Positions 2,592 through 27,056 of a stretch of DNA of 64,000 nucleotides are shown here, piece by piece. A program made the position numbers and the translations under genes. This stretch comes from Cytophaga aurantiaca DSM 3654. GTDB taxonomy: Bacteria; Bacteroidota; Bacteroidia; Cytophagales; Cytophagaceae. The stretch lies in the NCBI RefSeq assembly GCF_000379725.1, contig NZ_KB903620.1:112663-176662 (forward strand), read 5' to 3'. The notes below the pieces were generated by a model that saw only the letters and a program-made list of their open reading frames with translations, ran no database searches and was not told where the DNA came from. Every line of letters begins with the position of its first letter. The first letter of the stretch is position 1.

Positions 2592-3299
2592 ATGTTCGGT
2601 GTTATTGTTGTCATAAGTATCGCGACCATGCTGGCAAGCTGGTACGTGAGCCATAAGTTAAAAAGTAAATTTGAAGAATATTCTAAATTTACCTTGCTAT
2701 CCGGAATGTCGGGCAAAGAAGTCGCAGAACAAATGCTGCGCGACAACCGCATTTATGATGTGAAAGTAATCTCTGTTGAAGGCAGACTGACGGACCATTA
2801 CAATCCAAGCGACAAAACGGTTAACTTAAGTACGGATGTCTATAATGGCAGAAGTGCTGCATCAGCAGCAGTTGCGGCGCACGAATGTGGTCACGCCTTG
2901 CAACATGCACAGGCATACAGTATGCTTGAATTGCGCTCTACATTGGTTCCCATTCAAAACGTTAGTGCTACTATTTTGAATGTACTTATGATGGTTATGA
3001 TCTTTGGCGGTATGTTCTTTGCAGGTCCAGGAGCTCTACCGATTGTATTATTGATCATCATTGCATGCAACCTTGTCTTAACGGTGTTTGCGCTTATAAC
3101 TCTACCAGTAGAATTTGATGCCAGCAACAGAGCACTGGCATGGATGGAAAGCAGAGGCGTTACAAATGCAGCAGAACATGATATGGCAAAGGACGCATTA
3201 AAATGGGCTGCCAGAACATACGTTGTTGTTGCCATAGGCGCATTTGCTCAGTTGCTTTATTATGTAATGATGTATTTGGGTATGAGTCGCGACGACTAA
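2592..3299 (+). CDS. Membrane zinc metallopeptidase, YugP family
   Basis: A 235-aa membrane protein of the neutral zinc metallopeptidase family typified by Bacillus YugP. The catalytic HExxH motif is HECGH at residues 97-101, in AAVAAHECGHALQHA. There are hydrophobic segments at residues 2-20 and about 120-175, and another near the C-terminus. The substrate is not known for the family. It is the last gene of the panC-panD operon; a strong hairpin terminator lies 21 nt after the stop. Confidence 0.88.
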   Translation: MFGVIVVISIATMLASWYVSHKLKSKFEEYSKFTLLSGMSGKEVAEQMLRDNRIYDVKVISVEGRLTDHYNPSDKTVNLSTDVYNGRSAASAAVAAHECGHALQHAQAYSMLELRSTLVPIQNVSATILNVLMMVMIFGGMFFAGPGALPIVLLIIIACNLVLTVFALITLPVEFDASNRALAWMESRGVTNAAEHDMAKDALKWAARTYVVVAIGAFAQLLYYVMMYLGMSRDD

Positions 3300-22658: not shown

Positions 22659-23555
22659 TTGAATGCTCAAAATAACATATCAAAAAAAATACTTTTTATA
22701 GGTATTGTATTCAGCATGTTTATGTGGGGCTTAAGCTGGCCTTCCGGAAAAGTTGCGGCAGCCTATGGTGACCCGATATCAATAGTGTTGATCCGCTATG
22801 CCGTTGTATTCCTTAGTTCGCTTCCAATTGTATTTTTTATGAAAGCACCCTTAACAATGAACAAAAAGGGATTGCTTCCATTGATTGGCGCGGGATTGCT
22901 TTTGTCCATTTATACGTTTTTGTTTTTTTATGGCTTGAAGAACGGACTTGCCGGGGCAGGTGGTGTGTTGGTTACAACGATGAATCCGATCATGGCTTAT
23001 GGAATCGGTTTAGTAATCAACAGAAACAAGCCTTCAAGAAATGAAACAATCGGATTGATATTGGGTGTACTTGCAGGCGCAACGCTCTTAAAGGTATGGG
23101 GAAGCACGGATGAATTATTTTCCTCAGGAAATTTGTATTTCTTATTGGCTGCATTTGTTTGGGCAGTACTGAGCCGGATTACGTCGAAAGCTTCGACTTA
23201 CGGCTCTTCTATGACCTTTAGTTTGTGGATGTATCTTGCAACTGCTCTTATTATGCTGCCGCTGGTTGATTACAGTTCTTTAAAAGAAACACTTGTTATT
23301 GCAGATGGCTATTTCTGGTGGAACATTTTTTTCAGTGCTGTGTTTGCAACTTCACTTGCCACAACCTATTACTTTTATGCAACAACAACCTTAGGTCCTG
23401 AGAAAGCAAGCAGCTTTATTTTCTTAGTTCCTGTTTCAGCGGCTGTGTCTTCGTGGTTTTTTTTAGGTGAAGCATTACAGATACATACCATCATTGGCGG
23501 TGTATTGGGAATTGCTGCAGTGTATATGATCAATAGAAAAAAGGAAATTGTGTAA
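22659..23555 (+). CDS. EamA/DMT-family drug/metabolite transporter
   Basis: A 298-aa inner-membrane transporter with ten predicted helices in two EamA repeats (residues ~8-145 and ~155-295). Family marks are MFMWGLSWPSGKVAA, GGVLVTTMNPIMAYG and PVSAAVSSWFFLGEAL. The start is a TTG, the only choice that keeps the first helix intact. The substrate is unknown. Its stop overlaps the start of the next gene in TAATG, so both are coupled. Confidence 0.85.
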   Translation: MNAQNNISKKILFIGIVFSMFMWGLSWPSGKVAAAYGDPISIVLIRYAVVFLSSLPIVFFMKAPLTMNKKGLLPLIGAGLLLSIYTFLFFYGLKNGLAGAGGVLVTTMNPIMAYGIGLVINRNKPSRNETIGLILGVLAGATLLKVWGSTDELFSSGNLYFLLAAFVWAVLSRITSKASTYGSSMTFSLWMYLATALIMLPLVDYSSLKETLVIADGYFWWNIFFSAVFATSLATTYYFYATTTLGPEKASSFIFLVPVSAAVSSWFFLGEALQIHTIIGGVLGIAAVYMINRKKEIV

Positions 23556-24190
23556 TGAAAGCAATTGTTTTTGATGCGCTGAAAACTATTTTCATTTATA
23601 CAATCCTTTGTGTAGCTACCTTTCTTATATCTACTACCATACTGGAATATACCAGCTTCAATGAGCAAGCAGCCTTTCTTAAATACAAACAGGAATACTT
23701 ACATATCACAAGCTGGAAAATAGCTTTTTACATACATGTCTTTACAAGTATTTTTTGTCTGATCGCAGGCTTCACGCAATTTTCAAAATCGCTGCAAACA
23801 GAATATCCCGCCTTACACAGATTCATTGGGAAGGTATATGTGTTTAACATACTTGTAATCAATTTTCCTGCAGCGCTGATCATGGCCTATTATGCCAATG
23901 GTCTGCTGCCGACTAAAATTGCATTTACCATATTGGATTGCCTTTGGTTTTGGTTTACACTAAAGGCTTTTCTTGAAGTTAAAAAGAGAAATTTCAAAAG
24001 TCATGAAAATTATATGATCCGAAGTTACGCGCTTACATTTTCAGCTATCACGCTTCGTACATGGAAACTTATCTTATCAAGTACAACAGACATCGATCCG
24101 GATTCTTTATACATGATCAATGCCTGGCTTGGCTTTGTGCCCAACTTACTTGCTGCTGAATATTATATATGGATGAAAAATAAGGGATGA
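23555..24190 (+). CDS. DUF2306-type integral membrane protein
   Basis: A 211-aa protein with about six hydrophobic segments. The pattern with His in helices (YIHVFTSIFCLIAGF, LHRFIGKVYVFN, SHENYMIRSYALTFSAI) matches the DUF2306 family, whose conserved histidines suggest heme or electron transfer. The function is not known. Translationally coupled to the EamA transporter. It is convergent with the microprotein array, with no space between the stop codons. Confidence 0.75.
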   Translation: MKAIVFDALKTIFIYTILCVATFLISTTILEYTSFNEQAAFLKYKQEYLHITSWKIAFYIHVFTSIFCLIAGFTQFSKSLQTEYPALHRFIGKVYVFNILVINFPAALIMAYYANGLLPTKIAFTILDCLWFWFTLKAFLEVKKRNFKSHENYMIRSYALTFSAITLRTWKLILSSTTDIDPDSLYMINAWLGFVPNLLAAEYYIWMKNKG

Positions 24191-24391
24191 TTATGTTCTG
24201 CTAAAACTTTCGCCGATACACACCCGAAATAAAACAAATCCCATAAATAAAAAACTTACAATAAAGCATAGAATTGCTGCACTTACAGCAACTGCATCTC
24301 CCTTTCCTCTAAGTTCTTTATATACTTTCGAAGAAATAACAAACGAACTGAAAAGAACTACCAGAAATCCTATTAAAAGAACAATGAGCAT
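24191..24391 (-). CDS. Tandem-array membrane microprotein, member 5 (66 aa)
   Basis: Last member of a five-gene tandem array of small paralogous proteins. It has two hydrophobic helices, joined by the conserved ISSKVYKELRGKGDAVAV segment, and the tail GESFSRT, a variant of the FSRR end of its paralogues. There is no Cys-rich or signal-peptide feature. The most diverged copy. Its stop codon abuts the stop of the DUF2306 gene on the other strand. Confidence 0.7.
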   Translation of the reverse strand: MLIVLLIGFLVVLFSSFVISSKVYKELRGKGDAVAVSAAILCFIVSFLFMGFVLFRVCIGESFSRT

Positions 24392-24425
24392 ATAATACGT
24401 AAATTAAGTTAAGCAAAATCGAGAG

Positions 24426-24635
24426 TTATCTTCTACTGAATCCACCCGTTAATTGTGCCCATACATACAGAACACCCAGGCCTATAACAAAAAGGCTCAA
24501 AAGAAAGAATATAATAGAAAAGAATCCTGCAAATTTATTTCCATCATAACTTAATGTTCGGTACACTTTACGGGAAATATATAAAGAACTTAGTATCGTT
24601 ACTATAAGTCCTATAAATAAAAGTACTAGTTCCAT
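24426..24635 (-). CDS. Tandem-array membrane microprotein, member 4 (69 aa)
   Basis: I set the start at the ATG at 24635 (MELVLLFIGLI); the longer frame adds 21 polar residues and overlaps the previous gene. The shared core is ISRKVYRTLSYDGNKFAGFF between two membrane helices, and the end is TGGFSRR. The gap of 59 nt to member 3 and the same strand suggest one transcript. Function unknown. Confidence 0.75.
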   Translation of the reverse strand: MELVLLFIGLIVTILSSLYISRKVYRTLSYDGNKFAGFFSIIFFLLSLFVIGLGVLYVWAQLTGGFSRR

Positions 24636-24694
24636 ATCTGAAAGATTAAATCGAATCTGTTTTATTTTTAGAATACATTGACTGTCCAAAAGGA

Positions 24695-24922
24695 TCACCG
24701 CCTACTGAAATCTTCTTCGAATAAAACGAACCAGACAAAAAACACTCCAATCGTAATTACCGCAATACTTGTAATAAAACATAAAGCTGTAAATATGATA
24801 TAATATGGATTGTTGTTATTTTTAAGCGTCTTATATACTTTTCTGGAAATAAAAAAGCTACTTAAGATTATAAAAAATATAACTACCCATACTAAGACTG
24901 CTTCTATATTATTTGCATCCAT
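24695..24922 (-). CDS. Tandem-array membrane microprotein, member 3 (75 aa)
   Basis: Two-helix membrane protein with the array core ISRKVYKTLKNNNNPYYIIF and the tail FEEDFSRR. It has an acidic N-terminus (MDANNIEAV). It is most like member 2, with which it shares ALCFITSI/SIASFITSI after the core. No known family recognised. Confidence 0.75.
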   Translation of the reverse strand: MDANNIEAVLVWVVIFFIILSSFFISRKVYKTLKNNNNPYYIIFTALCFITSIAVITIGVFFVWFVLFEEDFSRR

Positions 24923-24985
24923 GTTTTTTAAAGTTTAACGATTCAAAATAAATTACCTTATACTCTACTGACCAGCCAATCAAAT

Positions 24986-25162
24986 TCAAAGAAAGAGTAT
25001 GGCAAATATTATAATCACAATGCTGGTAATAAAAGATGCGATTGAAAATATCAAGGCATACTCGTTATTTTTAGATTTTAATGCCTTATACACTTTCCAG
25101 GAAATAAAAAAAGAAATTAAGGCAATTACAAATAAGGTTAATAGTACAAGAGAAATTGACAT
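24986..25162 (-). CDS. Tandem-array membrane microprotein, member 2 (58 aa, probably truncated by frameshift)
   Basis: A 58-aa ORF, missed by usual length filters. It reads MSISLVLLTLFVIALISFF, then the array core ISWKVYKALKSKNNEYALIF, a second helix, and stops at ILFL. The other members all continue to an SRR/NRR/SRT tail. One nucleotide out of frame, the DNA just after reads FFEFDWLVSRV and stops, at 24958, much like the FEEDFSRR tail of member 3, so a recent frameshift is likely. The start is set by the ATG after a clear AT-rich leader. Confidence 0.65.
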   Translation of the reverse strand: MSISLVLLTLFVIALISFFISWKVYKALKSKNNEYALIFSIASFITSIVIIIFAILFL

Positions 25163-25205
25163 AAATTTTTACTGATTTGTATAATGAAACAAATATTAAG
25201 TAAAG

Positions 25206-25412
25206 TTACCTTCTGTTGAATCCGTCACGGAAAACAACCCAAACAATTGCCGCAGCAATGTAGATTAAAATAAATGTACCAATAAAACTACCTGCAGCAA
25301 TTATTATTGCGGCAGGATTTCCTTTTTTATCCAATACTTTATAAATCTTTAAGGCAACAAAAAATGCACCCAGCAAAGCTGTAAGTAACATTATAATTCC
25401 AGGAGTTTCCAT
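25206..25412 (-). CDS. Tandem-array membrane microprotein, member 1 (68 aa)
   Basis: First gene of the array in transcription order. It has the core FVALKIYKVLDKKGNPAAII between two helices and the tail RDGFNRR. The N-terminal helix (MLLTALLGAFF) starts almost at once after METPGI. It lies 43 nt before member 2. It has no recognised family; see the array finding. Confidence 0.75.
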   Translation of the reverse strand: METPGIIMLLTALLGAFFVALKIYKVLDKKGNPAAIIIAAGSFIGTFILIYIAAAIVWVVFRDGFNRR

Positions 25413-25508: not shown

Positions 25509-27056
25509 CTACTTTGAAAGTAATACAACAAAATATTTTTTCATTGCAGAAAATGTTTCTGCCGAAACCTTCTCATACGTTTCCGGATCTTCTTCCACAT
25601 ACTGATCGTTCCAGGAACCCATGCCGCCAAACTGATTAGCATTCTTAACTGCAAACAAGCCTAAAATAGTTTCTCTATCATAGTTCAATTTATACCATTC
25701 TTCCAGATACAGAAAATTATTTTTAAGAACTTCTAGAGAACGTTCTGAAAATCCTTTTGTTGTTAGATCTTTAGAAATAACTTCCAGATGAGCCGCATCA
25801 AAATTTCCTTCAGGAACTGTTTCAATCAAAAAATAATTTGCAAATCGAAACGCCTCTTCAAACGGAGACTGAATCTTTTTCGCAAACTGTTCTATTTCTG
25901 AAAGTGCCTGTGAAAACTCTTTCTTAACAACTTCAACATTTCCTTTTGATTCCAGCAAGGTTGTAATTGTTAAAGGCTCAAAGAAAGAAACTTCCCATGG
26001 AGTTTCATTTGATTTTAAATACCATCTGTCTTTGGAATTGCCGCGTGCAAGAGCTTTGTCATACTCTGTTTTATCAGGACCAAAAACATCTTTTAACGAT
26101 TCCGGAATTGTTGGACGTACATGATTTTCTTCTGAAAGTCTTCGTATTGCACCGCACACAACATTTACCAATCCGGTTAAACTCAGCTGCTCTGTTGTTT
26201 GTTTTTGAATGAATGCTTCAAGCTCTGTAGCTTTTGAAACAGGCACATCAGGTAATGGCCATTCCTGCATATCCGCTTCACAGGCCGACCATACAGCAGC
26301 TACGGATGGCTGCGCATGTACCAGTTGTATTAACTGCTCCGCAGAACATTCTTTTAATGCATACAGAAATGCGATCTCTCTGTTGTTGTCATCTCCAAAA
26401 AATGAAAAGTCGGACTGATAAAATAAATTTTTCAAATGTCCCGGCAATAGAAACGGTGTACCTGCAACCGTGCATTCAATCTGCATCTCTTCGGATAACT
26501 TAGTTGCCAGAAAATTAAATTCGCCTTTCCCTTCTTTACTGTTCAGATACGCACGCGCTTCGCTTTTCGCTACTGCTTTCCGACCATTCAATTCATTGGA
26601 TTCGGTTATTAGATTTGCAACCAACTCCCAATGAGCTTCGCTATTAGTTTGTACATCTACTAACTCGCCAAATAGTTCTGTTGTGATGGCATAGGAAGGT
26701 GAATAAAATGTTTTGATCACATAACAGTGTGTGGACTTTTCAGTAAGTACTTCAAAGAGATATTCCTGGGTACCTGCAAAAGCTGCTAAAATATGTTCGG
26801 GTAATTTATCTGATTCCTGTGCAACGGAACGTACAACACATTTTTTAATTTTTTCTGTCCGGAGTTGTTTAGCCCAGTCAGCAAAACAGACTTCCGTTCC
26901 ATCATCCAGTCCGGCTGCTAATGAAACAGCACCCGGCTTTTGTATTTCCTTTAATTCAAAAATAGCTCCGAAATAGTTTAGAAGCTCTTCTATATTTTCT
27001 TCCGGTGCTTCTAAAATTCCTTTTGAAAGCGTAATGATGTAATCTAATCGATTCAT
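25509..27056 (-). CDS. Hypothetical protein of 515 aa, no recognised family
   Basis: I cannot assign a function. It is a soluble, mostly helical, acidic protein with no signal peptide or membrane segment. Recognisable stretches include an N-terminal LDYIITLSKGILEAPEENIE, the central FSFFGDDNNREIAFLYALKE and a C-terminal helical part (EEAFRFANYFLIET, then FLYLEEWYKLNYDRETIL). The end has a Gly- and Trp-rich patch, FGGMGSWNDQYVEE. It lies between the microprotein array and the cbpA-cbpM pair, all on the minus strand; the gap to cbpM is 73 nt, so partial co-transcription is possible. Confidence 0.7.
   Translation of the reverse strand: MNRLDYIITLSKGILEAPEENIEELLNYFGAIFELKEIQKPGAVSLAAGLDDGTEVCFADWAKQLRTEKIKKCVVRSVAQESDKLPEHILAAFAGTQEYLFEVLTEKSTHCYVIKTFYSPSYAITTELFGELVDVQTNSEAHWELVANLITESNELNGRKAVAKSEARAYLNSKEGKGEFNFLATKLSEEMQIECTVAGTPFLLPGHLKNLFYQSDFSFFGDDNNREIAFLYALKECSAEQLIQLVHAQPSVAAVWSACEADMQEWPLPDVPVSKATELEAFIQKQTTEQLSLTGLVNVVCGAIRRLSEENHVRPTIPESLKDVFGPDKTEYDKALARGNSKDRWYLKSNETPWEVSFFEPLTITTLLESKGNVEVVKKEFSQALSEIEQFAKKIQSPFEEAFRFANYFLIETVPEGNFDAAHLEVISKDLTTKGFSERSLEVLKNNFLYLEEWYKLNYDRETILGLFAVKNANQFGGMGSWNDQYVEEDPETYEKVSAETFSAMKKYFVVLLSK

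Follow-up and report, generated by a model that had tools for sequence, protein, structure and literature searches.

Five small genes on the minus strand of a 64,000-nucleotide stretch of the Cytophaga aurantiaca DSM 3654 genome (the window) form a head-to-tail array, which is placed between a gene for a 515-residue protein on the same strand and a convergent DUF2306 gene (Table 1). They are transcribed in the order g5, g4, g3, g2 and g1, with spacers of 34–63 nt. The initial annotation had reported five genes of these lengths in a row on one strand, and all five open reading frames (ORFs) are indeed there on the minus strand. When each of the five proteins was used as a phmmer query against the 559 six-frame ORFs of the window, the other four were the top non-self matches (E 1.6e-13 to 6.3e-5), while the best unrelated match had E 0.035. 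The array consists of five genuine, related genes and is more than a set of chance ORFs. For g2, a GTG-started alternative frame of 90 residues is also open.

Table 1. Genes and junction of the microprotein array and its flanks (window positions)
Feature	Position	Strand	Basis or remark
g5, two-helix microprotein of 68 aa, tail GFNRR, first gene of the array	25206..25412	-	ORF list, phmmer
g4, two-helix microprotein of 58 aa without an in-frame tail	24986..25162	-	ORF reading
g3, two-helix microprotein of 75 aa, tail DFSRR	24695..24922	-	ORF list, phmmer
g2, two-helix microprotein of 69 aa, tail GFSRR	24426..24635	-	ORF list, AlphaFold model
g1, two-helix microprotein of 66 aa, tail SFSRT, stop codon abutting the DUF2306 stop	24191..24391	-	
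DUF2306 membrane protein of 211 aa, convergent partner gene	23555..24190	+	Pfam PF10067 (E 5.5e-38), tree
Stop-to-stop junction TGA|TTA of g1 and DUF2306, zero gap	24188..24193	.	
515-aa protein with no family match, upstream of the array	25509..27056	-	Present without the array in G001

Shared core, basic tail and the g4 frame

The initial annotation had described a core of the form [IA]S[RW]KVYK[TAV]L and a short tail ending with SRR, NRR or SRT in all five proteins. The core is present throughout, but in the strict form only in g3 and g4 (two of five). A relaxed pattern, [VI][SA]x[KN][VIA]Y[KRA]xL, which we composed after inspecting the five sequences, matches all five genes and nothing else in any of the six window frames; it was also absent from 30 Markov-simulated windows. 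Four of the five copies have an in-frame basic tail, one ending with SRT and one with NRR, whereas that of g4 is frame-shifted. In g4 the frame closes with CTT TGA directly behind helix 2; just downstream, the +1 frame encodes a tail-like stretch whose last residues are SRV.

The release factor 2 gene prfB usually carries a +1 frameshift site, and CTT TGA is the slippery pair of prfB. A programmed +1 frameshift could thus give g4 a full-length tail, and an end of the type [SN]Rx appears within 15 codons in 779 of 200,000 random stretches of the window. However, in three genomes of the genus (loci L060, L061 and L062), prfB has no +1 frameshift site and RGYLGYD is read in frame. It thus gives no example of the mechanism at work in these genomes, and a single-base change or an assembly error is simpler. 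For this reason we read g4 as damaged or misassembled and regard a programmed shift as highly improbable. The one g4 sequence at hand is probably a decayed copy or the product of an assembly error.

A perfect TTGACA-18-TATAAT pattern is found on the plus strand at 25156–25185, at the start of g4 and antisense into g5. It is the single match in the window at up to one mismatch, where the mean expected by chance is 1.26, and is not significant as a count. TTGACA/TATAAT is not the usual promoter type in Bacteroidota, and the Bacteroidota-type promoter pattern does not occur in the array.

Relatives, selection and predicted structure

We found two further copies (h1 and h2) in a second genome of the genus, G002, with a profile of the five window genes (E 6.2e-22 and 2.2e-18). 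They are flanked by the same two genes as the window array. The first copy begins 6 nt past the 515-residue gene, where the window has a spacer of 96 nt. In a third genome of the genus, G001, neither DUF2306 nor microprotein genes are found at the site; an EamA gene and the 515-residue gene adjoin there, with 104 nt between them, and the DUF2306 gene of this genome is located elsewhere and belongs to another DUF2306 group in the tree. The 515-residue protein itself is present in seven of 291 genomes of the order, all within the window's own family. A stretch FGGMGSWND is invariant in all six aligned members, none of which has a Pfam match at E 0.01, and a fold search with a model of the protein (pTM 0.44) returned no significant match (best 0.71).

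The seven units of the genus bear out the proposal of a tandem duplication with divergent helices around a conserved core. The core and the tail have a mean pairwise column identity of 0.50 and 0.51, respectively, compared with 0.32 and 0.29 for the helices. In all 21 pairs, pN is lower than pS and the second codon position is the least changed, the latter contrast reaching p < 0.05 in six of the 21 pairs taken singly. A codon model (IQ-TREE, fixed tree, kappa 2) evaluated on a grid of fixed omega values gave lnL -1485.6 at omega 0.05 and -1528.1 at omega 1, a difference of about 42 log units; since synonymous sites are near saturation, this speaks for omega below 1 and the value itself is unreliable. 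These sequence comparisons indicate that the units are under purifying selection overall. A tree of the seven units does not resolve their branching. The closest microprotein pair between the window and G002, g2 and h1, has 54% identity, compared with about 81–82% for DUF2306 and 68% for the 515-residue protein, so the microproteins diverge faster than the genes beside them. AlphaFold predicts a two-helix hairpin for g2 (residues 2–30 and 36–63, mean pLDDT 87.6, seven-row alignment). In fold searches, this model had no match below E 1 (best 3.4 in PDB and 1.2 in BFVD).

A profile of the seven units matched six genomes, the window's own included, among 395 genomes of the class at E up to 0.001. 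In G129 and G916 the matches lie inside frames of 351 and 359 residues and were set aside. Small-frame matches were new in G1007 (three units, best E 1.4e-8), G904 (E 2.4e-6) and G935 (E 5.6e-5), which belong to other families of the class. G1007 has one gene of 71 residues and one of 138 residues, in which two units are fused in one frame. Profile homology between the window array and units of other genomes was found in both directions: a profile built from the five outsider units only ranked the five window genes first (E 1.6e-11 to 9.3e-7), the next-best of the 559 ORFs having E 0.22. The initial annotation had looked to homologous arrays elsewhere as the check on its reading, and such arrays exist, with two copies in G002 and three units in G1007, where two are fused. 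The fused frame is located at 2842–3258 of locus L115 (minus strand) and its first unit lacks the tail. Directly upstream of the array lies a gene for an LRR protein (L115 3393–5081, minus strand) with Hint and PT-HINT matches below cut-off.

A further copy, in G008, is very divergent and ends with FKR. A 12-unit profile made without G008 detected it at E 4.3e-4 (325 convergent ORFs searched), whereas the seven-unit profile gave no better than E 2.8 and another profile search missed it. Its hhalign probability against the array profile is 2.2%, and as a query against 19 genomes of the family it found no convincing relative, the window array included. Copy number thus ranges from one (G904, G935 and G008) through two (G002) and three units (G1007) to five in the window. 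In the wide profile searches, including that of the 395 class genomes, at most 15 candidates per genome were scored, so divergent copies are overlooked, as the case of G008 shows, and absence is weakly tested.

When samples of relatives and of the family, order and phylum were searched by profile, full-length matches came solely from the window's genome and G002, and scans with single proteins found no relative in genome contigs (g3 and h2) or viral contigs (g2). The remaining profile matches were set aside: they lie in long frames, contain stop codons or cover a short frame partially and with a weak score (E 0.03 or worse, as in G015, G016, G026, G037 and G050). Six loci behind such matches, read by eye, look like larger membrane proteins, which we take to be CcsA-like (twice), CydB-like, SPFH-like, oxidase-subunit-III-like and one without a name.

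The view that the array fits no recognised family agrees with the libraries searched, in which no Pfam or NCBIfam model scored above its cut-off. The best Pfam match was UPF0542, for one member of seven (E 0.0011, 19.1 bits against a cut-off of 27), and none of the five window copies passed in NCBIfam. For the five outsider units, there was no Pfam match at E 0.01 and there were two NCBIfam matches, both below cut-off. The best match in a PDB sequence search was sc-CC-7-LI (E 0.003), with no stretch passing on its own, and Rfam gave nothing above the gathering score. We found no account of the five-gene array in the portions of the literature accessible to our search.

Convergence with one group of DUF2306 genes

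In all three of the distant genomes, G1007, G904 and G935, the microprotein gene is convergent with a DUF2306 gene and abuts or overlaps it. A search for DUF2306 that was independent of the microproteins located 78 places in 57 of 194 genomes of the order. We examined 74 DUF2306 loci, comprising 71 of these 78 (seven were not fetched) and the three class loci. A convergent, abutting or overlapping microprotein relative is found at six of the 74, namely, in G000 (the window), G002, G935, G904, G1007 and, in divergent form, G008, and all six DUF2306 genes belong to one group. The remaining 68 loci yielded no partner; one of them (L122) has just 20 bases downstream of DUF2306 and cannot be judged.

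The six paired DUF2306 proteins are those most similar to the window's (100, about 81, 69, 60, 60 and 50% identity), the next having 48%. In a DUF2306 tree made with a quick method, they form one side of a branch with an SH-aLRT support of 100, and the presence of a partner requires one change on this tree, compared with a mean of 5.8 in shuffles (none of 500 as low). The group boundary was set around the partner-bearing loci, three of which were found via the microprotein. Two results are free of that choice: the three class finds all have a DUF2306 gene, and among the 71 order loci alone a partner is present at the three most similar DUF2306 genes (G000, G002 and G008) and at no other. The gene link between microprotein and DUF2306 is, from these comparisons of gene order and sequence, well supported.

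The convergent stop codons have zero gap in G000, G904 and G935, while the genes overlap by 45 nt in G002, 42 nt in G1007 and 36 nt in G008. The surroundings of the paired loci differ, with five contexts, and DUF2306 is the only neighbour common to all six. Three residues mark the paired DUF2306 group (window numbering): N103 and D128, found in none of the 68 others, and F104, found in one. They fit a functional coupling, yet they also follow from common descent alone. Across the 74 loci, H61 is conserved in 73, and H88, H150 and R168 in all. An hhalign comparison of the array profile with the window DUF2306 gave no support (probability 0.2%).

Proposed role and known systems

The five genes may be tandem copies of an accessory inner-membrane hairpin that acts with the adjacent DUF2306 branch, a proposal to which we give about an even chance. 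Each copy would comprise helix 1, a cationic turn [IS]x-K-x-Y-x-x-L, helix 2 and, in most cases, a short outer tail ending with [GS]R(R). All 12 units have a loop charge of +2 to +5, which in each of them exceeds the summed charges of the ends, so the positive-inside rule probably places the turn in the cytoplasm and the two ends outside. The helices, by eye, are almost free of charged residues (one exception is an arginine towards the end of helix 2 in g1); this speaks against their forming a transport path by themselves. On the partner side, the three near-invariant histidines and the arginine suggest a cofactor or metal site in DUF2306. The hairpins would pack on one DUF2306 branch as accessory or regulatory subunits, similar to small subunits of the CydX type, and might stabilise this protein or tune its activity. 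Tandem copies could supply interchangeable or side-by-side protomers; the two units joined in one frame in G1007 agree with the latter arrangement, and the tandem copies together with the fusion suggest that several hairpins can be used together. A multi-subunit membrane complex, as proposed in the initial annotation, gains some support from the DUF2306 pairing and the fused unit, although the complex itself is a matter of inference. The microprotein does not appear to be a general DUF2306 subunit, given that 68 of the 74 loci yielded none. As the genes are convergent, they cannot form an operon with DUF2306, and the 6-nt spacing in G002 suggests cotranscription with the 515-residue gene instead.

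Alternatively, DUF2306 and the microprotein might travel or be kept together as a linked cassette, for instance through shared termination or antisense control, while the two proteins act separately. The abutting stops and the overlaps of 36–45 nt would fit such a linkage, as would the occurrence of the pair in five different contexts and its absence as a unit from the corresponding place in G001, but the group-specific DUF2306 residues and the group-wide pairing fit a functional coupling (both are also explicable by common descent). We consider this possible, if rather unlikely.

The spacing that suggests cotranscription also raises the idea that the microproteins anchor the upstream 515-residue protein in the membrane, or are its partners, and function with it as an operon. 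The genes are on the same strand, separated by 6 nt from the first copy in G002 and by 96 nt in the window. We think it improbable, because G001 keeps the 515-residue gene without the array, no array relative is seen downstream of this gene in G004, G006 and G015, and other genes lie upstream of the relatives in G1007, G904, G935 and G008.

The initial annotation had also suggested rapidly diversifying toxin or immunity components, to which holin-like proteins may be added. Small size, two helices, tandem arrangement, a copy number of one to five, a damaged copy (g4) and the LRR gene with Hint-like matches upstream of the array in G1007 would all suit such proteins. However, no Hint-like gene was observed at the remaining loci, the units appear to be under purifying selection overall, and the sole constant neighbour is DUF2306. 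Models for immunity, phage and defence proteins give weak matches at most: the Gip immunity model scored 13.3 bits against a cut-off of 45, and the best matches were E 0.023 in PADLOC and E 0.014 in PHROG, each for one member of seven, which assigns the units to no bacteriocin-immunity, anti-phage defence or phage family. No relative of g2 was found by tblastn in phage records, nor of h2 in plasmid records. There is little chance that the suggestion is right.

Returning to accessory hairpins of DUF2306, we can extend the proposal in a speculative and, in our judgement, unlikely form: an undescribed family of two-helix subunits would mark a distinct DUF2306 branch as a multi-subunit membrane enzyme, and multiplication and fusion of the subunits would vary the composition of the complex from host to host. 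Such a system could be likened to a small-scale version of the subunit diversification in rotor rings or antennae. DUF2306 is a common family that is almost uncharacterised, and a dedicated partner, if true, would offer a handle on the role of this branch. The finding also illustrates that a small-protein family missing from the searched annotation libraries is recoverable through a fixed gene neighbourhood.

Several known systems can be compared with the array. The ldr and ibs loci are tandem arrays of small membrane toxins, which are shorter, have a single helix and are paired with antisense RNAs. The array shares with them the tandem paralogues of small membrane proteins, but its products are two-helix proteins and DUF2306 is its constant neighbour. 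Small subunits of membrane oxidoreductases of the CydX/CcoQ type have one helix and are encoded in the operon of their enzyme. Like them, the products of the array are membrane proteins of very small size, and in our proposal they would be attached to a larger one in which histidines are conserved; unlike them, these proteins have two helices and are encoded convergently to their partner and in tandem, and searches of Pfam and NCBIfam showed no sequence relation between the two. On the side of the partner, PraC is a fungal DUF2306 protein that is needed for an epoxidation and has been called the first functionally characterised member (PMC12895699). It differs from our system in being fungal and in that the accessible part of its description names no microprotein partner (PMC12895699), and it resembles our system in that the gene convergent with the array belongs to the same family, PF10067 (E 5.5e-38).
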